64,000 bases of DNA, taken from NCBI RefSeq assembly GCF_011082725.1, contig NZ_CP049715.1, positions 1,736,001-1,800,000 on the forward strand, written 5' to 3'. A program made the position numbers and the translations under genes. The notes below the pieces were generated by a model. It was not told the origin of the DNA and did no database searches. It saw only the letters and a program-made list of their open reading frames with translations. Below are positions 11,019-20,379 of this stretch, in pieces (position 1 is the stretch's first letter; every line of letters begins with the position of its first letter). The stretch is from Apibacter sp. B3706. GTDB taxonomy: Bacteria; Bacteroidota; Bacteroidia; Flavobacteriales; Weeksellaceae.

Positions 11019-11438
11019 ATGGCTTTACAAGATAAATACGCAGATTTAATAAATAAGGCGAAAAGTCTGGGAACAACAAATCTTTCTGTTAAAGAACAAA
11101 ATAATGTTCTTTATATTGATGGAGAAGTTCCGAATGGAGAATCTAAAGATCAGTTGTGGGCTGCTTATAATAAAATTGATCCTGATTTCAGATCCGCTGA
11201 TTTAATTTTAAATATTAATGTATCACCCAATGCTCCTTCTTCAAAATATAAAGTAACCACTCAAAGTTCTAATTTAAACATTAGAAAAGGACCGGGTACG
11301 GATCAACCTATTTTAGGAAAAGCTGCACATCAATCTACGGTAACTTTTCTGAGCAAATATAATGACGATTGGTATTTAATACGATCTGAAGATGGAACCG
11401 AAGGATATTGTAATACTGAATATTTAACAGCTATATAA
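11019..11438 (+). CDS. BON-like plus bacterial SH3-domain protein
   Basis: A 139-residue protein with no signal peptide or membrane helix that I can see. Residues 1-65 resemble the second BON unit of the preceding lipoprotein, a beta-alpha layout with NVLYIDGEVPNGESKDQL. Residues 75-139 form a bacterial SH3 domain (SNLNIRKGPGTDQPILGKA, then GTEGYCNTEYL), a fold that often binds peptidoglycan peptides. An SH3b domain normally acts outside the cytoplasm, so the absence of a signal sequence is odd; either export is non-classical or the protein acts inside the cell. It starts 4 bases after the upstream stop and is followed by a hairpin terminator. Confidence 0.8.
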   Translation: MALQDKYADLINKAKSLGTTNLSVKEQNNVLYIDGEVPNGESKDQLWAAYNKIDPDFRSADLILNINVSPNAPSSKYKVTTQSSNLNIRKGPGTDQPILGKAAHQSTVTFLSKYNDDWYLIRSEDGTEGYCNTEYLTAI

Positions 11439-11779
11439 AATTATTATACTTAAATATTTTTTGAGGGGCTTGAATTAATTTTCTTGCCCTTTTTTTTTCT
11501 AATTGAATATACCGGAATCACATTGATATTTTTTTAAGATTGCTTGACCTGTTGATACTATGACTTTTTAAAAAACATTTAAATTTTTTGTTTATTGTTG
11601 CATCTAATTAAATTTAGATAGAATTATAGTTTCTTAGGATTGATTTTTGCTAGTATCTTATCTAATATTTTTATTTAAACTGTTTTTATTTTTTTGTGTA
11701 TAATTTTATTTTTTATTTACTATTGCCTTTGAATTTTGATCAACAGAGAACTAGTATTATTTTAATACCTATATATTAA
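11439..11779. other. Intergenic region, 341 bases
   Basis: Holds the terminator at 11465-11499 and then about 280 bases of T-rich sequence without an open frame of note. It should contain the promoter of the ABC/membrane/kinase group, but I found no perfect TAnnTTTG close to the 11780 start. Confidence 0.6.
11465..11499 (+). terminator. Intrinsic terminator after the BON/SH3 pair
   Basis: Hairpin with arms GGGC-TT-GAA (11466-11474) and TTC-TT-GCCC (11481-11489), a 2x2 internal mismatch and a 6-base loop, followed by a run of nine T (11490-11498). It lies 27 bases after the stop of the SH3 gene. The stem is imperfect but the T-run is strong. Confidence 0.65.
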
Positions 11780-12931
11780 ATGAATTTATTCGAAAAGCAA
11801 TTTCAAGATATTATACATTTTTTACAGTTTGACGATTATTCTTTAGTTTTAAAGAGAATTATTGACTTAACGTTAGATACGGAAGAGATATCTTTTTATA
11901 AGAAAACAAGTGATTTACTTCAATGGGTTGATTATAATGAATCCAATGAAAAAGGAAAAAAGGAAAAATATTCTGTCATCTTAAATGAACTTTATCAATT
12001 TCTTTCTAAAAAAGAAATTCATGAACCGAAAAAACTTCTTGAAGCCGAAAAAGTTAAAAAATCATACAGTAAATCTGCTTTTTCTTTAGGTCCTATAAGC
12101 TTAAAAATTTCCGAAGGAGAAATTATTGGTTTAGTGGGAGAAAATGGAAATGGTAAAACTTCTTTGCTTAGACTTTTATGTGGAGAATTGGAAGTGACTG
12201 AAGGAAATATATCTTATACGCTGGATTTTAAAGATCGATATGAGTTAAGAACTAAGTTGATTTATATTCCTCAAAGGCCGAATCTATGGTACGGTTCTAT
12301 ATTAGATAATCTTCAATTTACTGCATCTTCTTATAATATTAAGGGAGAAGAAAACGAATTAATGGTTGATTTGATTACTTCCAGAATGGGATTGCGAAAC
12401 TATCGGAAAATGAATTGGGCTAATCTTTCTTCAGGATATAAAATGAGGTTTGAATTAGCCCGAATGTTACTTAGAAAACCTAAACTTTTACTGATTGATG
12501 AGCCTTTAGCTAATTTAGATATTCTTTCTCAACAAACGGTATTGGAAGATTTTAAAGCAATAGCAAAATCTCCATTCAGACCTTTGGGTATCGTTGTAAG
12601 CTCTCAGCAATTGTATGAAGTGGAAAAAAATTCCGATCAAGTGCTATTCTTAAAACATGGGGAACAAAAAAATATAAAAAGTGAGAGTTCTGATAAAAAA
12701 GAATTGCCTGAATTGATTATTGAGTTTGAATCGGAATGGCCTCAGGAAAAACTTTATGCTTCTTTATCTAAAATCTCTTTACTAAAATTACAATATAATG
12801 GAGGTTCTTATATTGCGCATTTTCCTGATACTACGTCGGTGAATAATTTTTTAACTCTTTGTATTGATGATCAGATACCCATTAAGTATTTTAGAAATAT
12901 ATCTGATTCAACTCGTAGATTTTTTATTTAA
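11780..12931 (+). CDS. ABC-type ATPase with N-terminal extension
   Basis: ATP-binding subunit of an ABC system, 383 residues. The first 85 or so residues belong to no domain I recognise. The ABC domain then shows Walker A GENGNGKT (120-127), the signature loop as LSSGY (216-220) in place of the usual LSGGQ, and Walker B LLLIDEP (236-242). At the switch position, normally histidine, the sequence reads VSSQQLYEVE, so Q276 stands where His is expected. The last 90 residues form a separate C-terminal domain. The next gene encodes a polytopic membrane protein, which may be its partner. The altered signature and switch residues suggest slow or regulated ATP hydrolysis (inference). Confidence 0.85.
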   Translation: MNLFEKQFQDIIHFLQFDDYSLVLKRIIDLTLDTEEISFYKKTSDLLQWVDYNESNEKGKKEKYSVILNELYQFLSKKEIHEPKKLLEAEKVKKSYSKSAFSLGPISLKISEGEIIGLVGENGNGKTSLLRLLCGELEVTEGNISYTLDFKDRYELRTKLIYIPQRPNLWYGSILDNLQFTASSYNIKGEENELMVDLITSRMGLRNYRKMNWANLSSGYKMRFELARMLLRKPKLLLIDEPLANLDILSQQTVLEDFKAIAKSPFRPLGIVVSSQQLYEVEKNSDQVLFLKHGEQKNIKSESSDKKELPELIIEFESEWPQEKLYASLSKISLLKLQYNGGSYIAHFPDTTSVNNFLTLCIDDQIPIKYFRNISDSTRRFFI

Positions 12932-12952
12932 TTCTTTTAAAAATCCGTGATC

Positions 12953-14335
12953 ATGTTTACAAAAACACAAAAACGTTTGCTAGAAAATTACCCTATTTTA
13001 TGGAACACAAAATTTGTTCCGATGGGTATAACAGTTCTATTTATTAATATTTTTTTCTTTATTACGGGTTATTTTTCCGGATCTATTAATTTTTATGAAA
13101 CAGATTATGATTTAAATAGCACCACTGTCATCTATCTTATTTCAGTTTTAGCTAGTTTATTAATTCTCATTATATGGTTAGTATTTTATTTAAAGAATAA
13201 TGGCTTTAAGTCCTTTTACCCAAAACAATCTAATGCTCTATATGTGGAATGGCTATTGACTTTCATCTTACTCATCGGCAATCAATTATATTCTTACAGT
13301 TATTATCAAGGTATTACATATAAGGAAAGAGCCTTTGCTTCAAAACAACAAATCTATGAAGCTAAAAAAATATTGAATCAAATTCAAATATTAATACCTG
13401 ATTCGTATAATTATTATCAATTCAATCCTATCGAGAAAACTATTGATTCTTTAGAAAAAGATCCTGATTCAACTCCCATGCACTTATCTCTTCTTAATTT
13501 TTATCCATATAATAAGGAGATTGAGCAGGTTAAAGATTGGTTAATTACCGAACAAAAGGATAGCATAAGAAATTTAATTCGAGAATATTTAGATCTTCAA
13601 AAAAAACATAATCTTTCTACCAATCTTACTGTAAACAGTTGGATGAAAATAGTTTATAATCCACCCAATTATATTGTTACTGAATCAAATTATATTAGCA
13701 ATGCAAAAAATCAAAATGATGATAACATAAAAAATTATGTGGAATTTAAAAAACTCGATTTTGCTTATCAAAAAATGTTTGACGCATATAATAATGGGAA
13801 TTTTTCCAATGAGTTTATTTTAATCATTTTATATATTGCTTTAAGTTTATCTATAGCAATATTATCCTTTCGTACAACAAGTGGAAAAGCCTGGTTAATC
13901 GCATTTATAACATTTGGATTACTTATTTTTATTAACGGAATTATTTCTGTTTTATTCCGTCTATTTTCTTTTGAAATTAATGAGTATAATATCACTTATT
14001 TAATAACTATTTATTGGACATTGATACTCTTATTTATGAGCATTTATATTGTACTTAAACTCTATAAAAAAAGCGCAAAGAATAAATCAACTGTACTGAT
14101 AAATTTAATTTTATGGATATTACCCTATATGCCTATACTTTATTTTACAACGTTTATGATAATAATGAATGAAACCTCTTGTAGTGAATATCTGAATCAT
14201 TATATTAGTACTATATACCTTTACTTTTTTAATCATTCTATCGCCTTTTTTTGGATTAATCTTATATTTGTAGGTATCATTTTATTCTTTATAGCTAAAA
14301 TAATAAAAAACTGGAAAGCTTTGCCTGAAGAATAG
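12953..14335 (+). CDS. Polytopic membrane protein of unknown family
   Basis: I do not recognise this 460-residue protein. It has about eight hydrophobic helices (numbering from the ATG at 12953: roughly 22-40, 58-80, 99-112, 286-305, 313-338, 347-370, 382-404, 428-448). A hydrophilic segment of about 170 residues lies between the third and fourth and contains predicted helical, charge-rich sequence. This layout, three helices, a large loop, then five helices, resembles an ABC-2-like permease only loosely. It starts 21 bases after the ABC ATPase and ends 28 before a sensor kinase, so the three look like one transcription unit. I prefer the ATG at 12953 to the GTG two codons earlier. Confidence 0.75.
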   Translation: MFTKTQKRLLENYPILWNTKFVPMGITVLFINIFFFITGYFSGSINFYETDYDLNSTTVIYLISVLASLLILIIWLVFYLKNNGFKSFYPKQSNALYVEWLLTFILLIGNQLYSYSYYQGITYKERAFASKQQIYEAKKILNQIQILIPDSYNYYQFNPIEKTIDSLEKDPDSTPMHLSLLNFYPYNKEIEQVKDWLITEQKDSIRNLIREYLDLQKKHNLSTNLTVNSWMKIVYNPPNYIVTESNYISNAKNQNDDNIKNYVEFKKLDFAYQKMFDAYNNGNFSNEFILIILYIALSLSIAILSFRTTSGKAWLIAFITFGLLIFINGIISVLFRLFSFEINEYNITYLITIYWTLILLFMSIYIVLKLYKKSAKNKSTVLINLILWILPYMPILYFTTFMIIMNETSCSEYLNHYISTIYLYFFNHSIAFFWINLIFVGIILFFIAKIIKNWKALPEE

Positions 14336-14363
14336 ATGAAATTAACCCTATTTTTTATTTTAA

Positions 14364-15800
14364 ATGTACAAAAGATTCCCATTATCCTTGCGAATTTTTT
14401 TAGTGATGATCCTCGTTGTGGTCAGCACTATATTTGCCATGGGATTGATAACTTTTTATCAATATATAAGAATTGCGGAGGAATATAATAATAAAAGGCT
14501 AGAAAGAAAGGAACAATTAATTATAGAAACTTTCGATTATCTCATTTCCAATCGAAATACAAAACCGGAGGAGGTTAAAAATAAAATTGGCAATAAAATT
14601 TATGAAATTTCAGATATTAATAATATCGATATAAATTTTTATTCTCTGGATGGAAAATATATTTTAGGGAATAAATTACCCAATCCTAAGACTGAATTTG
14701 TTCCTAAAGAAATCTTAAAAAATCTGAATGTAAATAACGACCGTATAGAGGTTATAAACAAGCTTCCTAATTCAGAAGAAAGTTTTACGTCCGTATACAG
14801 ATACCTTTACAACAATGATTATCAACCTATTACAATTATAAATTTTCCTTTTTTACATGATGAAGCATTTCTAAAAAAAGATTTTTATTCCTTATTATAT
14901 AGATATTTAGTTATCATGCTTATCGTATTAATTGTAAGTGGTATTTTTTCATGGTTCTTTTCACTTACTTTAACCAGAAAAATTAAAGATATTGCTTATC
15001 GGCTTAGGGATACCGGCGCACTTACTCATAATAGACCCCTTTTATATAATTATATTGATGAAGTGAGTCCATTGGTTAAAGCTTACAATATTATGCTGAA
15101 TAAATTTAGAGAGCAAACTGATGCACTGGTTAAAAAAGAAAAAGATAATGCTTGGCAGGAAATGGCAAGACAAGTGGCTCATGAAATTAAAAATCCGCTT
15201 ACCCCTATGCGGCTCGAAATTCAAAGTTTTCAATTAAGATTTAATCCAGAAGATCCACAAATTCATGAAAAGTTAGATTCATTAACCCGTTCATTAATAC
15301 AACAAATAGATACTATTGCCTCGATTGCCGGCGCATTTTCGGACTTTGCAAAAATGCCTGTAAAAAAGGATGAAAAGTTAAACGTAATTGAAGTTGCTAA
15401 AATTTCATTAGAAATATTTCCATCTCAACAAATTTCACTTGATACACTTGATGAATTGGTCATTTTAAATATCGATCCTAATTTATTGAACCGTATATTA
15501 ACCAATTTAATAAAAAACGCTTTTCAATCGATACCGGAAGGAAGAACTCCCCATATTATTGTAAAAATCAGACAAGACATACGAATGGTTTATTTTTCTG
15601 TTATTGATAACGGAAATGGAATTCCGGAAGAAATAAAAAGCAAAATTTTTACTCCTCAATTTTCGACTAAAACCAGTGGAAGTGGTTTAGGTTTAGCTAT
15701 CATTAAAAAACTAATTGAAGAATATAATGGGTCTATAACCTTTATGTCTGAAGAAGGGAAAGGAACTATTTTCAAATTTGAAATCCCTAAAGGTGAATAA
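14364..15800 (+). CDS. NtrY-like membrane sensor histidine kinase
   Basis: Inner-membrane sensor kinase of 478 residues. The first helix is at about 9-33, an extracytoplasmic sensor domain spans 34-178, the second helix is at 181-203, and a HAMP linker follows to about 255. The phosphoacceptor is H273 in VAHEIKNPLTPMRLE, a variant typical of NtrY-like kinases. The N box (NLIKNAFQSIPEG), G1 (DNGNGIPEE) and G2 (GSGLGLAIIK) boxes are all intact. No response regulator gene lies nearby, so the partner is encoded elsewhere. It follows the ABC ATPase and membrane protein closely, suggesting that the kinase reads or controls that system (inference). The next gene overlaps its last codons. Confidence 0.88.
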   Translation: MYKRFPLSLRIFLVMILVVVSTIFAMGLITFYQYIRIAEEYNNKRLERKEQLIIETFDYLISNRNTKPEEVKNKIGNKIYEISDINNIDINFYSLDGKYILGNKLPNPKTEFVPKEILKNLNVNNDRIEVINKLPNSEESFTSVYRYLYNNDYQPITIINFPFLHDEAFLKKDFYSLLYRYLVIMLIVLIVSGIFSWFFSLTLTRKIKDIAYRLRDTGALTHNRPLLYNYIDEVSPLVKAYNIMLNKFREQTDALVKKEKDNAWQEMARQVAHEIKNPLTPMRLEIQSFQLRFNPEDPQIHEKLDSLTRSLIQQIDTIASIAGAFSDFAKMPVKKDEKLNVIEVAKISLEIFPSQQISLDTLDELVILNIDPNLLNRILTNLIKNAFQSIPEGRTPHIIVKIRQDIRMVYFSVIDNGNGIPEEIKSKIFTPQFSTKTSGSGLGLAIIKKLIEEYNGSITFMSEEGKGTIFKFEIPKGE

Positions 15801-16488
15801 TATTTTTAAGTTTAAAAAATTTAATATATTTCAAAATAATTCCGTATTCAAAGTAGGTACAGATAGTGTATTATTAGGTTGTTTTGCTGATATACATAAT
15901 GCCTCCCACATTCTTGATATTGGTACCGGTACAGGGATACTTTCGTTAATGTGCGCGCAAAGAAATTCCATTTCTCATATTACAGCCATGGATTCTGAAT
16001 ACAATGCGTATTCTTTGGCCTTGGAAAATTTTAAAAATTCTTCTTTTTCTCAAAGGATCACAGGTATCCATTGCGATTTAGACCGTTTCTTTAGTGATAT
16101 ATTATTTGATTATATTATTTGTAACCCTCCTTATTTTAAAATTTCAGAAGTATTACATCGTAAACATCCTGTCGCCAGGCAGCAAATAAAACTTAATTAT
16201 CATCTTCTTATTAAAAAATCGGCATCATTACTATCTCAAAATGGAAAAATTGGATACATTTTTCCTATAGAAAATGAGCAAGAAATACTTGAACTATCAA
16301 ATAGATATAATTTATTTCCCAATCGCATTATATATATTTCAGGAATAAGAAATGGAAAAATTAAAAGAATTTTCCTTGAACTTAGCAGAGAAGATAAAAA
16401 TCCTATAATTAAATACTTTGTTATAGAAGAAAAAAGCCGTATTTGGTCGGAAGAATATAAAAAATTAACATCAGATTTCTATTTATAA
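15793..16488 (+). CDS. trmN6: tRNA1(Val) (adenine37-N6)-methyltransferase-like protein
   Basis: SAM-dependent methyltransferase of 231 residues. The SAM loop reads ILDIGTGTGILSLM and the adenine-N6 motif is CNPPYF, the combination found in the TrmN6/YfiC family, which methylates A37 of valine tRNA. The sequence around VFKVGTDSVLLG at the N terminus is also characteristic. I take the GTG at 15793 as the start; it overlaps the end of the kinase gene by 8 bases, and no ATG is available near the conserved N terminus. A TTG at 15778 would lengthen the protein by five residues. The stop overlaps that of convergent yraN by 6 bases. Confidence 0.87.
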   Translation: MNNIFKFKKFNIFQNNSVFKVGTDSVLLGCFADIHNASHILDIGTGTGILSLMCAQRNSISHITAMDSEYNAYSLALENFKNSSFSQRITGIHCDLDRFFSDILFDYIICNPPYFKISEVLHRKHPVARQQIKLNYHLLIKKSASLLSQNGKIGYIFPIENEQEILELSNRYNLFPNRIIYISGIRNGKIKRIFLELSREDKNPIIKYFVIEEKSRIWSEEYKKLTSDFYL

Positions 16489-16845
16489 TATCATAGAAAA
16501 GGCGTCTTTTATATGTTCAATTTGCCATCTGTAATCTTTTTTTATGATGGAAATAATATCGAACCTTACATTGACATCCATTTTTTTACAAAGCACATAT
16601 TCATTTGCTGCTTTAATCAATAATTTTCTTTTTGATCTGGTTACTGCCTCTATAGGATCAATGATAGTTGTATAGTTTCTAGCCTTAACTTCTACTATTA
16701 CCAACTCAGAAGCATTTTTAGCAATAATATCAATTTCCGCCTTATCATATTTCCAATTTCTATCTAATATTTCATATCCTATATCTAAAAGATAATAAAA
16801 TGCTTTCATTTCTGCTTCTTTTCCAAATTCATTATGATAAGCCAC
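16483..16845 (-). CDS. YraN/UPF0102 family endonuclease-like protein
   Basis: Small protein of 120 residues in the UPF0102 family, which has a Holliday-junction-resolvase-like restriction-endonuclease fold. The characteristic segments are GKEAEMKAFYYLLDIGYEIL, NWKYDKAEIDIIAK and LVIVEVKAR; the E-(x)n-D and ExK residues of the last two form the presumed metal site. Biological function remains uncertain in this family. It is the only gene on its transcript, with a consensus -7 element at 16892-16899, and it converges with the tRNA methyltransferase gene with a 6-base overlap. Confidence 0.9.
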   Translation of the reverse strand: MAYHNEFGKEAEMKAFYYLLDIGYEILDRNWKYDKAEIDIIAKNASELVIVEVKARNYTTIIDPIEAVTRSKRKLLIKAANEYVLCKKMDVNVRFDIISIIKKDYRWQIEHIKDAFSMIL

Positions 16846-16891
16846 ACTATATTTTTTAGTTTATTAATTAAAATTATATTTATATGAAATA

Positions 16892-16899
16892 CAAATATA
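16892..16899 (-). promoter_or_regulatory. -7 element (TATATTTG) for yraN
   Basis: Perfect match to the Bacteroidota TAnnTTTG element on the minus strand, giving a predicted start of transcription near 16886 and a leader of about 40 bases. It directly abuts the mirror-image element for the plus-strand lipoprotein gene. Confidence 0.7.
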
Positions 16900-16900
16900 C

Positions 16901-16908
16901 TATATTTG
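16901..16908 (+). promoter_or_regulatory. -7 element (TATATTTG) for the YD-repeat lipoprotein
   Basis: Perfect TAnnTTTG on the plus strand. Transcription should begin around 16912-16915, downstream of the 16884 ATG and upstream of the 16923 ATG, which is the main reason for choosing 16923 as the translation start. Confidence 0.72.
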
Positions 16909-16922
16909 AAAAAAAATCCTGT

Positions 16923-17702
16923 ATGAGGAATAAGACCCTATTATTTTTTAGTTTTTTTAGTTTCTTCATTTTTTTCTCCTGTGGAGACGAAAATTTTGAA
17001 CCCTATCCTAATCATGAATTTGATAACCATAAAGGTTTATTACCTTCAGAATATATAAAAACTGAAATAGATAAAAATACAGGGAATAAATTAACTGTAA
17101 CTACTTCTATGCAATACGATAATTTGAATAGATTAATAAATATTAAATCGTCTATCTCAGATTCGATAATTAATATTCATATGATCACTTATAATGAAAG
17201 TAATGGTAAAGTTTATACCGTTACTACCGAGAATGCCGGAGGAACTTATTTGTATTCTTATGAATATACCAAACCCGGTATTATACTTGAGCATAGAAGT
17301 TTTAAAACAAATCCTCCTCCCGGATATCCTGAAATTAAACCTTATACAAGAACCTTAGCTGTTTCGGGCGATAAATTACTAAAAATAGAAGATCCAAAAG
17401 ACGCACAAACCCATCTTTTCAAATACGACAAATACGGAAATTTAACTCAATTTGATACTACTATTTATACTTATGACATCTTAAAAGGCTTGATGAACAA
17501 CGTAAAAACTCCTCATTGGTTATTTGCAGCATTCGAAGGAAATTTTCCATTCACTTACAATCTGGTTAATAATATTACCGGTGATAATAAGGGAACTGTT
17601 TATAATTATGAATATAATAAAGACTTACATCCTGATTATCCTACAAAAATTATTCTTAACAACACAGAAGAAATAATTATCAATTATATAGTTGCTAAAT
17701 AA
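16923..17702 (+). CDS. YD-repeat-like lipoprotein
   Basis: Predicted lipoprotein of 259 residues. The signal peptide is very phenylalanine-rich and ends at FFSC, with C20 lipidated. The mature part contains degenerate YD/RHS-like repeats, seen as QYDNLNRLINI, KYDKYGNLTQFD and NYEYNKDLHPDYPTKI. Bacteroidota genomes carry many such small surface lipoproteins of unknown function, some resembling DUF4595. The start at 16923 is set by the promoter element at 16901-16908; the upstream ATG at 16884 would place non-signal residues in front of the hydrophobic core. The gene seems monocistronic; a hairpin terminator lies 144 bases beyond the stop. Confidence 0.78.
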   Translation: MRNKTLLFFSFFSFFIFFSCGDENFEPYPNHEFDNHKGLLPSEYIKTEIDKNTGNKLTVTTSMQYDNLNRLINIKSSISDSIINIHMITYNESNGKVYTVTTENAGGTYLYSYEYTKPGIILEHRSFKTNPPPGYPEIKPYTRTLAVSGDKLLKIEDPKDAQTHLFKYDKYGNLTQFDTTIYTYDILKGLMNNVKTPHWLFAAFEGNFPFTYNLVNNITGDNKGTVYNYEYNKDLHPDYPTKIILNNTEEIIINYIVAK

Positions 17703-17870: not shown

Positions 17871-18036
17871 GCATTTTATATCTACCTTATTAATCAATCT
17901 CAATTATAGTAACACATATAAATATCCGAATACATTACTTCAATTATTAGATTATTAAAACATATAATAGCTTAAATATTGAATCATATTTCTATTACTA
18001 TTTATTTTTCTTACCCAATAAAGAATAAATTAATTA

Positions 18037-18044
18037 TATTTGCC
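18037..18044 (+). promoter_or_regulatory. -7 element (TATATTTG) upstream of the orphan ORF
   Basis: Perfect TAnnTTTG match 68 bases before the ATG at 18112, in the right orientation to drive it. No obvious -33 TTTG at the expected distance. In such AT-rich sequence a chance match is possible. Confidence 0.5.
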
Positions 18045-18111
18045 ACTTAAATTAGATAAAATATACGATTATTTATTATTAAACTAACTTATTATTGAAA
18101 AATATAATCTT

Positions 18112-18624
18112 ATGAATTTATTCGATAAAAAAAAAATGTTGATACCAATTTATAATGATTTCGCTATGTTTAAAGCTCCTTCTTTTTTTATTAATTATAG
18201 AATTTATCAGAATGTAAAAAAATTTATTATCCTAATTCCTTTTGAAATAAAAAAATTAAAAACTAATATTAGCAAATTATTATCTAAATGTTATTATACT
18301 TTCAAATATAATTTATTCAACTTTTCTAATTACTTGTTTTTTCCACAACCTTTCAAATTTAAAAAACAAACCTATCCATTGATTATTAAATTGTATAGTT
18401 TATACGTTTCTCAAATTATTAGTAATCAATTTATATATGCTATTTTAAGTATGAATATAATTCAATTGTATGATTATTTTGCTTTTTTTAACTACAAAAT
18501 ATTGAGCATCATACCATTATTTAAATTGCTAGATTTATTATCTAAAAACTTAAATAATAATATTTCAATATTTGGAAATAAAATAAAAAGAGATAATTTA
18601 GATTTACTTTTCGTACCATACTAA
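18112..18624 (+). CDS. Hypothetical basic protein in AT-rich region
   Basis: I do not recognise this 170-residue product. It is rich in Lys, Ile, Phe, Asn, Leu and Tyr, has very few acidic residues, and has hydrophobic stretches around residues 95-125 that could be weak membrane segments. There is no signal peptide. The local GC content is about 20 % in the lines I counted, where stop codons should occur about every 11 codons by chance, so a 170-codon open frame argues for a real or recently active gene. A consensus -7 element lies 68 bases upstream. It could also be a decayed fragment of a transferred gene. Confidence 0.45.
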   Translation: MNLFDKKKMLIPIYNDFAMFKAPSFFINYRIYQNVKKFIILIPFEIKKLKTNISKLLSKCYYTFKYNLFNFSNYLFFPQPFKFKKQTYPLIIKLYSLYVSQIISNQFIYAILSMNIIQLYDYFAFFNYKILSIIPLFKLLDLLSKNLNNNISIFGNKIKRDNLDLLFVPY

Positions 18625-18898
18625 AGAATAGACCTTACACATACCAATTTATACTAAAAAAAGATATCTTATCTTAAATTTTATTTTTTTTACAATTATA
18701 TAACTGTAAATCTAATCTTTATAGATTGATTTCAAAAGATCTATTTTATATTGTATTTATAAAAGGGGAAGATTTATTTAAATATAATATATATTATAAA
18801 TACCAATAATTTTATTTTTTTGTTAAAAGTATCTTCAAAATAACAAATATTTTGTCTAATTATAAGTGACTGTAAAATAAAGAAAACTACAAAATATT

Positions 18899-19687
18899 AT
18901 GAACAAAAAAAATTTAAAAAAAATAATAGAACAATGCATATACTATGAGGAATATGGAAAATTTACAGATTGTTTGACAATTTTACATCATTTAACTAAG
19001 CAATACCCTAAGGTTAGTTATTTTTATCATTTAGCCCAAGTATATTACAAAAACAAAAACCCGGATTTAACATTAAAATTTATAAATGAGGCAGTACTTA
19101 CACAACCTAAACATAAAAAATCTTGGTTTTTAATAAAAGGTGTCTTTTATGAAGATCAAGGAAAGCTTAATGAAGCCGAACAAATGTATTTAAAAGCGTT
19201 AGATATTGATTACGATCATTTTGACTCTAGAATTCAATTAATAAGCCTATATTTTTATAAATACAAAGATTATCAGGAAACAATTAAACAATGTGAGTTC
19301 GTATTCTCCTATAAAAAATTTGAATATACCAAAAAAAAAAAGTGCCGTACATCTTTTATGTGGTTGTATGCACTATGGGCTCCTTTGTACAAATCCTATA
19401 TTTATTCTCACCAATATAAGCAAGCCATTAAAATAATAAATCATAAAAAACAAACTATTAATTTTATGTCTGTTGAAATAAAAGAAGATTTTTTTCGTAG
19501 GGAGGATAAAATTTTATTTAAACTATATTATCTTTTAAACGATAAAAAAAAATTAGACGAAATAACTTATTTATGGAAACATTATTACAAAGTGAGCGAT
19601 AAGTACATTAAAGGAATGAAACTTGATGCTGATCAAAACTATATTACTCATATAAATCCAAAAAATTACGACATAGATATATTTTAG
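18899..19687 (+). CDS. TPR-repeat protein
   Basis: A 262-residue cytoplasmic protein with tetratricopeptide repeats between about residues 1 and 140; the clearest unit is GVFYEDQGKLNEAEQMYLKA, preceded by HLAQVYYKNKNPDLTLKFIN and followed by ISLYFYKYKDYQETIKQCE. The C-terminal half is lysine- and tyrosine-rich without a domain that I recognise. TPR units bind partner proteins; the partner is unknown. It is flanked by long AT-rich gaps on both sides and stands alone on its strand. No signal peptide is visible, so it is likely intracellular. Confidence 0.75.
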   Translation: MNKKNLKKIIEQCIYYEEYGKFTDCLTILHHLTKQYPKVSYFYHLAQVYYKNKNPDLTLKFINEAVLTQPKHKKSWFLIKGVFYEDQGKLNEAEQMYLKALDIDYDHFDSRIQLISLYFYKYKDYQETIKQCEFVFSYKKFEYTKKKKCRTSFMWLYALWAPLYKSYIYSHQYKQAIKIINHKKQTINFMSVEIKEDFFRREDKILFKLYYLLNDKKKLDEITYLWKHYYKVSDKYIKGMKLDADQNYITHINPKNYDIDIF

Positions 19688-20379
19688 GAATGTAATACAT
19701 TATTAGACGGATGCTTAAAATCTAAATTTAAATAGATACAAATACCATTTTGTTTTATAATTCATATTTATATAAGTAAAGTTAAAAATTCTTAACAAAG
19801 CTCGTAAGCTTTTGAGATTTAAAACTATTACTAATTAAGACGAAGTATAAAACAGGATTTGCATATTAATTATTTATTGTGAAATATCTTAAAGCTTATT
19901 ATAAAATGTAAGCGATTTTTGTTTAATAAATTTCATCATAAATCAACTGTAAAAAAAGATGTTAACTATGAACTTTAAAAGTATTAAATAGTATATATTC
20001 TAGAATAAGTGTATAGGTTAAAATTTTTATAAACTAATAATAAATTGTACTAAACAAATATAGACTTATTAAAAAATGAGATCGTAAAATTTCTTTGAAA
20101 TTCAGAAACTATGTTTTCACTATGTAAACTTATAAGTTGTTCGGAAACATACTATATAAACTTATTATTTTTAAAAATATACAAAATAAGCCTCAATGTT
20201 TTTTATTACAATTTAAAAACATTAATGGCTAAAAGATTTATCTTCTTACTACGGAATTCGATGAAATATGGGATAATTACTTAATAAGTATTTCATAGTT
20301 TCTTTCATAAAAAAAGTTGAATTAGTTTTTTAAAAAATTATTTCAATAAATGTAATATGAAATAAACTTTTGTTTAAGT
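19688..20379. other. Intergenic region, 692 bases, no gene seen
   Basis: The longest gene-free stretch of the window. I find no open frame of note, no RNA gene and no strong terminator; an 8-bp AT-rich stem (20338-20345 with 20358-20365) lies next to the helicase stop and may act as a weak terminator for it. It could be eroded coding sequence. Confidence 0.55.

Follow-up and report, generated by a model that had tools for sequence, protein, structure and literature searches.

A two-gene ABC module of patchy distribution lies beside a widespread NtrY-like histidine kinase gene in Apibacter

The 64,000-nucleotide stretch of the Apibacter sp. B3706 genome analyzed here (NZ_CP049715.1, positions 1,736,001 to 1,800,000; hereafter the window) carries, on its plus strand at positions 11780-16488, four codirectional genes encoding an ATP-binding cassette (ABC) ATPase, an eight-helix membrane protein, a histidine kinase, and a trmN-like product. 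The genome is 2.30 Mb in size and forms one contig. The ATPase gene (11780-12931) is separated by 15 bp from the membrane gene (12947-14335 when read from a GTG codon), which is in turn separated by 28 bp from the kinase gene (14364-15800), and the trmN-like gene overlaps the end of the latter. For the membrane gene, an ATG at 12953 is a likelier start than the GTG at 12947, as judged by eye from its better fit to relatives. A first-pass annotation had treated the first three genes as one unit and proposed a sensing complex in which the state of a transporter is passed to the kinase. The three plus-strand open reading frames (ORFs) underlying that proposal are real, and their ratios of nonsynonymous to synonymous substitution rates (dN/dS) relative to the closest congener fetched are 0.12 for the ATPase, 0.20 for the membrane protein, and 0.03 for the kinase, indicating that all three are maintained as proteins. 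Their distribution among relatives suggests instead that the first two genes constitute a module by themselves.

The 383-residue ATPase matches the Pfam family ABC_tran (5.7e-28; 98.7 bits against a cut-off of 25), and its structural model (predicted local distance difference test score, pLDDT, of 88.6) comprises an N-terminal helical domain with helices within residues 3-75, a nucleotide-binding domain (NBD), and a C-terminal α/β domain. Across 101 aligned ATPase rows, corresponding to 97 distinct sequences because some genomes were fetched twice, the Walker A motif reads VGENGNGKT[TS] and the Walker B motif ends in DEP with its glutamate intact, while the intact Q-loop occurs in the context YIPQR or close variants. 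The signature, LSSGY in the window (residues 216-220; 12425-12439, plus strand), conforms to [LI]SSGY in 101/101 rows, and the switch-histidine position (residue 276; codon at 12605-12607, plus strand) is occupied by glutamine, within the sequence SSQ, in every row. The protein therefore possesses the Walker A motif, Q-loop, signature, and Walker B glutamate of the superfamily, but not its switch histidine. Because exceptions at this histidine are known among degenerate sites, as stated in a review (PMC7756269), the ATPase stays within the ABC superfamily. The same review relates that replacement of the H-loop histidine by glutamine or asparagine at the second site of ABCC1 kept wild-type-like transport. 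The signature and glutamine were thus correctly noted in the first-pass annotation, although "degenerate" is too strong a term given that the Walker A motif, Walker B glutamate, and Q-loop are intact. Judged from the aligned sequences, [LI]SSGY and the switch glutamine are hallmarks of this family rather than signs of decay; a second ABC ATPase of the same genome carries the signature LSKGY. If this reading is correct, the group would represent a natural ABC family with glutamine in place of the switch histidine throughout, allowing a direct test of whether that histidine is dispensable.

The NBD and C-terminal portion of the ATPase model (residues 83-383) align with TM_1403 (4yer) over 252 residues, with a Z score of 24.3 and a root-mean-square deviation of 4.4, and NosF is among the Foldseek matches of the model. 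The C-terminal domain, which had initially been described as unrecognized, thus finds counterparts in these two proteins; that description stands for the N-terminal helical part, which has no assignment. Models for GldA and DrrA are among the better NCBIfam matches, and none of the 25 best NCBIfam rows reaches its curated cut-off. An NBD followed by a C-terminal α/β domain is the arrangement seen in the ABC-2 exporter ATPases DrrA, GldA, NosF, and TM_1403, and the window ATPase has the NosF/TM_1403-like C-terminal domain looked for in an ATPase of this type. Unlike these proteins, it carries an additional N-terminal helical domain and the switch glutamine, and its partner, unlike the membrane subunits of ABC-2 exporters, has no ABC-2 permease match.

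The model of the membrane protein (pLDDT 82; predicted template modeling score 0.76) contains eight helices, with an insert between helices 3 and 4 (residues 130-284; 13334-13798, plus strand) that is helical in the model and, from the charge pattern, periplasmic. The first-pass annotation had proposed both the eight helices and the large loop; the latter measures approximately 155 residues in the model rather than the approximately 170 estimated, and averages approximately 255 residues over 38 relatives. Both termini are predicted by charge to lie inside, as lysine and arginine account for 18-26% of the inside segments and 8-13% of the outside ones. The most conserved segments are the first cytoplasmic loop (residues 81-101; 13187-13249, plus strand) and both termini (mean entropy 1.25-1.29), and the insert has zero columns conserved at 95%. 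The loop bears the motif [KR]NNxFKxxYP, which we propose as a site of contact with the ATPase. Its conservation was counted in a set of 38 rows collected by motif-independent searches, since the pattern used in a scan of named genomes itself demands the loop motif; within this set, W77, N85, K88, and P92 are identical in 38/38 rows.

Searches of Pfam, NCBIfam, PDB sequences, and PDB folds returned nothing convincing for the membrane protein, the best PDB sequence match having an E value of 0.26 and the best fold match a Z score of 6.2, a result that is no proof of a new fold. No FtsX-type permease profile matched this eight-helix protein. Among 20 members of the membrane family searched at E 0.1, DUF3810 was matched weakly by two (best E 0.004) and other profiles weakly by single members each, and neither assignment was accepted. 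We make no claim of positive selection in the periplasmic insert, for which dN/dS values of 0.14, 0.26, and 0.55 were obtained in three comparisons, with a synonymous rate above 1 in the last two.

Some relatives of the membrane protein occur without the ABC ATPase. Chryseobacterium relatives of approximately 400 residues lack an ATPase neighbor and, as judged by eye, are missing FKxxYP from the motif, an absence that would fit a role for the first cytoplasmic loop in coupling to the ATPase. Proteins related to the first half of the membrane partner, with no ABC gene adjacent, are encoded at L149:6022-7236, L150:5859-7061, L151:6465-7718, L152:7415-8677, and L153:1-548, the last of these, a truncated Flavobacterium copy, lying in what appears by eye to be a type VI effector locus. 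Such ABC-less relatives are possibly repurposed or immunity proteins.

The ATPase and membrane genes are found together across a patchy distribution. In the family to which Apibacter belongs, the membrane gene was detected in 80/296 genomes and the ATPase gene (E 1e-60 or better) in 75/292, spanning 11 of 33 genera. The two are adjacent on the same contig and strand in all 75 ATPase-bearing family genomes, with 10-69 bp between the matched ranges, and all 100 pairs measured in a broader, partly overlapping set are on one strand. Five membrane-gene matches have no corresponding ATPase match: three are weak and have broken frames (G168, G195, and G252), one is at a contig end (G081), and one belongs to a genome outside the ATPase sample (G295). 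A membrane-gene profile detected relatives in 23/346 genomes of a sample of the order and in 6/296 of a sample of the phylum, counts that include weak relatives without an ATPase neighbor (G043, G150, and G160 in the former; G043 in the latter). Among named genomes, no relatives were detected when the single membrane sequence served as query; a scan with an alignment recovered 157, and the best 80 of these were retained. An ATPase gene lies upstream of the membrane gene in 79 of these best 80, including one that is split and one located by tblastn, and the remaining locus is cut by a contig end. Hosts of the pair among the named loci include Flavobacterium, Chryseobacterium, Empedobacter, Dysgonomonas, Tenacibaculum, Winogradskyella, and metagenome-assembled genomes (MAGs) assigned to Chitinophaga and Phycisphaerales. 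The presence of the pair on a Phycisphaerales MAG contig (L210) reflects either inter-phylum transfer or an error in binning.

This linkage strongly supports the view, drawn here from gene order, that the ATPase and membrane protein are partners forming a tight two-gene module, as the first-pass annotation had expected of these two proteins. No third partner gene was found to recur across clades in the loci read, where neighbors were named by eye rather than by profile and were not clustered; among these neighbors are ClpB, subunits of ATP synthase, a GNAT, a solute-binding protein, a gene resembling serine dehydratase, and a TetR-type gene that precedes what looks like a paa cluster. The module can apparently be lost, because the ATPase gene is interrupted by a stop in G083 and shortened in G120 (both of the Empedobacter group) and is split in Flavobacterium rakeshii (L205).

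The window ATPase is approximately 56-65% identical to Flavobacterium copies, 56-60% identical to those of Dysgonomonas, and 50-55% identical to those of a few Weeksellaceae, compared with approximately 43-50% identity to the ATPases of most family members that carry the gene. In an ATPase tree, from which L045, L148, L205, and L206 were left out as they provided no row passing the score cut (L205 is split; L206 and L045 are cut), the Apibacter sequences group with the Flavobacterium copies and a few Weeksellaceae with support of 0.998. On these identities and the gene tree alone, horizontal transfer would be the simplest reading. Within Chryseobacterium, 16 loci containing a DUF2911-like gene (named by eye) were fetched; upstream of this gene, the pair occurs in 2 and is missing from 14. 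The 14 loci were picked for ATPase absence (13 had earlier been negative and G841 had not been tested), such that the comparison reveals presence or absence of the unit and conveys no frequency; in one of them, carB is followed directly by the DUF2911-like gene. The stretch upstream of this gene (L281-L296 and L244) holds a changing gene set that sometimes includes the ABC pair, and it is possibly a hot spot of gene exchange. As part of the explanation we favor, the two genes have probably been acquired and lost together as a cassette, with any direction of transfer being presumptive.

The distribution of the kinase is different. A relative (E 1e-60 or better) was found in 290/292 family genomes, compared with 75/292 for the ATPase, so most genomes have the kinase without this transporter, and relatives at E 1e-30 or better occur in 10/10 genomes checked outside the family. 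The protein combines the HisKA (6.3e-7) and HATPase_c (4.1e-25) domains of NtrY with an N-terminal sensor part whose membrane segments were judged by eye; neither HAMP nor PAS was matched at E 1 or better. Among 23 fetched loci in which the kinase is not beside the pair, including that of genus member G097 and that of a genome with two such kinases (L164), but not L171 and L174, which were fetched at guessed places and contain no kinase, the riboflavin synthase gene ribE is directly upstream in 20 and trmN directly downstream in 20, and neither the ATPase nor the membrane gene is present in any of the 23. The upstream gene is presumed to encode riboflavin synthase on the basis of its MFTGI start. 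The corresponding trmN-like tRNA methyltransferase gene in the window (15778-16488, plus strand) matches NF047853 best among NCBIfam models, at 152 bits and thus under the cut-off of 350. In the 10 genomes outside the family, the neighbors of the kinase differ and are often, by eye, HemJ-like and enoyl-CoA hydratase-like genes.

Adjacency of the kinase to the pair was seen only in Apibacter. The kinase adjoins the pair in 8/8 members of the genus that have the membrane gene, in 0/31 ATPase- or membrane-gene loci fetched elsewhere in the family, and in 4 of the best 80 of the 157 named loci, all 4 being genus members. In G055, kinase and pair are approximately 10 kb apart, and in genus member G097 the kinase and trmN genes occur without the pair. 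Conservation of the gene neighborhood, which had been suggested as a check, thus speaks against the three genes forming one unit, and a complex passing transporter state to the kinase can be rejected as a conserved system. On this comparative evidence, the kinase gene is old, widespread, and independent of the pair almost everywhere, being its neighbor, with no sign of conserved partnership, only in Apibacter. The case illustrates how adjacency in a single genus can point to a sensing complex that comparison with relatives argues against. The resemblance to BceAB-BceS, raised at the outset, consists in ABC genes lying beside a kinase gene in Apibacter. The systems differ in that the window kinase is unlinked from the ABC pair in relatives, has no regulator beside it, and, unlike BceS, has an N-terminal region of approximately 160 residues between presumed membrane segments. 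With the transporter-kinase linkage conserved in one genus only, membership in this group was rejected. The Bce permease is a ten-helix protein of the FtsX type, and the model of the window's membrane protein has eight helices.

As the first-pass annotation had observed, no response regulator is near the kinase: the closest one in the genome lies at a distance of approximately 70 kb, next to a different kinase. The Apibacter genome encodes five response regulators and nine HATPase_c proteins, five of which were taken as sensor kinases from size and sequence, a count that could miss kinases with a divergent ATPase domain. Three of these adjoin regulators, leaving unpaired the window kinase and a 382-residue kinase beside an lptB-like gene and, among the regulators, a PorX-like protein and an NtrX-like sigma-54 activator, names that we assigned by eye. 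By elimination, the latter (G000:C1:539968-541143; L080:1492-2670), an orphan present in 283/286 family genomes, is the likelier partner, which would supply a candidate for the near-universal orphan kinase of this family. The likeness to NtrY/NtrX includes the HisKA and HATPase_c kinase and the presence in the genome of an orphan NtrX/NtrC-like regulator; the difference is that the kinase and regulator genes lie apart, both here and in 10/10 checked genomes outside the family, in none of which does a response regulator adjoin the kinase. Both ntrY and ntrX are listed in a paper on the genome of Chryseobacterium oranimense (PMC10710014).

Taken together, we consider it probable (approximately 0.6) that the pair is a self-contained ABC module of two subunits that functions in ABC-2-like export, with the kinase being separate and paired with the NtrX-like activator. 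Two copies each of the ATPase and the membrane protein probably form the system. As the ATPase dimer binds and hydrolyzes ATP, it would act on the conserved first cytoplasmic loop of the eight-helix subunit, moving this subunit and thereby changing its variable periplasmic domain. By analogy with ABC-2 systems, the module would most likely serve to export or extract a compound that is hydrophobic or antimicrobial. In Apibacter, the cassette would have come to sit upstream of a resident NtrY-like kinase gene that elsewhere usually lies between ribE and trmN, and the kinase most likely signals to the NtrX-like activator encoded at a distance. We take the pair to be an ABC system whose likeliest function, with moderate confidence, is ABC-2-like export. 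If correct, this would be an ABC system whose membrane subunit is recognized by no profile or solved fold in the libraries searched.

Several observations weigh against this interpretation. The ABC-2 analogy is drawn from the ATPase, because the membrane protein has no ABC-2 permease profile or fold match; the 20 family members examined at E 0.1 likewise lacked an ABC-2 permease profile match, a result that does not thereby exclude an ABC-2 fold. The step of the ATPase tree at which Dysgonomonas joins has support of only 0.498 and is unreliable. The retention of the kinase beside the pair throughout the eight genus members would also fit a genus-level link, and, as the kinase and the NtrX-like regulator are both nearly universal, co-occurrence cannot test their pairing.

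Among the alternatives, the one that fares best, while still improbable on balance, is that the pair serves in self-protection by clearing the envelope of a bacteriocin, antibiotic, or toxin. This would explain the patchy, apparently transferred distribution, and is in line with the presence of TIGR03740 (lantibiotic protection) among the better NCBIfam matches of the ATPase, albeit with a score of 90.7 bits where the cut-off is 309.75, and with the ABC-less relative in the apparent type VI effector locus. On the other hand, no recurrent biosynthetic or toxin neighbor was seen by eye in the loci read, and PADLOC returned nothing for the membrane protein and, for the ATPase, matches common to ATPases at large. 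Somewhat more doubtful is a non-transporting ABC system, comparable to FtsEX or an ABC-F-like switch, in which the periplasmic domain would be gated by ATP and no substrate would be moved. Such a role would agree with the glutamine found throughout at the switch position and with the variable periplasmic insert, but the Walker B glutamate is intact in all aligned rows and the eight helices exceed the four of FtsX. A bolder version of the transporter reading, which we regard as similarly doubtful, is that the eight-helix protein represents an ABC membrane subunit of a new class, its fold distinct from those of the described transporter types, and is driven through [KR]NNxFKxxYP by a glutamine-switch ATPase in a system horizontally exchanged among Bacteroidota, perhaps for defense against competitors. 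Finally, a recent, Apibacter-only sensing complex akin in idea to BceAB-BceS, in which, once the module lay upstream of the kinase, transporter state or co-expression would have become coupled to kinase signaling, has in its favor the short gaps on a common strand, the adjacency kept across the genus, and the failure to find a terminator-like site in 11300-17000, but is very unlikely given that the kinase occurs without the pair in most family genomes and in G097 and shows much higher conservation than the pair does (97% identity to the closest congener, compared with 86% for the ATPase and 73% for the membrane protein).

An open-access literature search found no description of the pair, including in PMC7756269, PMC10710014, and PMC12316311, although such a search cannot show that the pair is unpublished. 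A promoter search with a Bacteroidota-type consensus found zero plus-strand sites in 11200-16900, and its plus-strand count over the whole window was 4, compared with 4.55 in base shuffles; a sigma-70 promoter scan gave 28 sites, below the 40.2 of shuffled sequences, and neither result was relied on. Downstream of the locus, positions 18001-20000 of the window are very A+T-rich (20.4% GC) and contain an ORF at 18112-18624.

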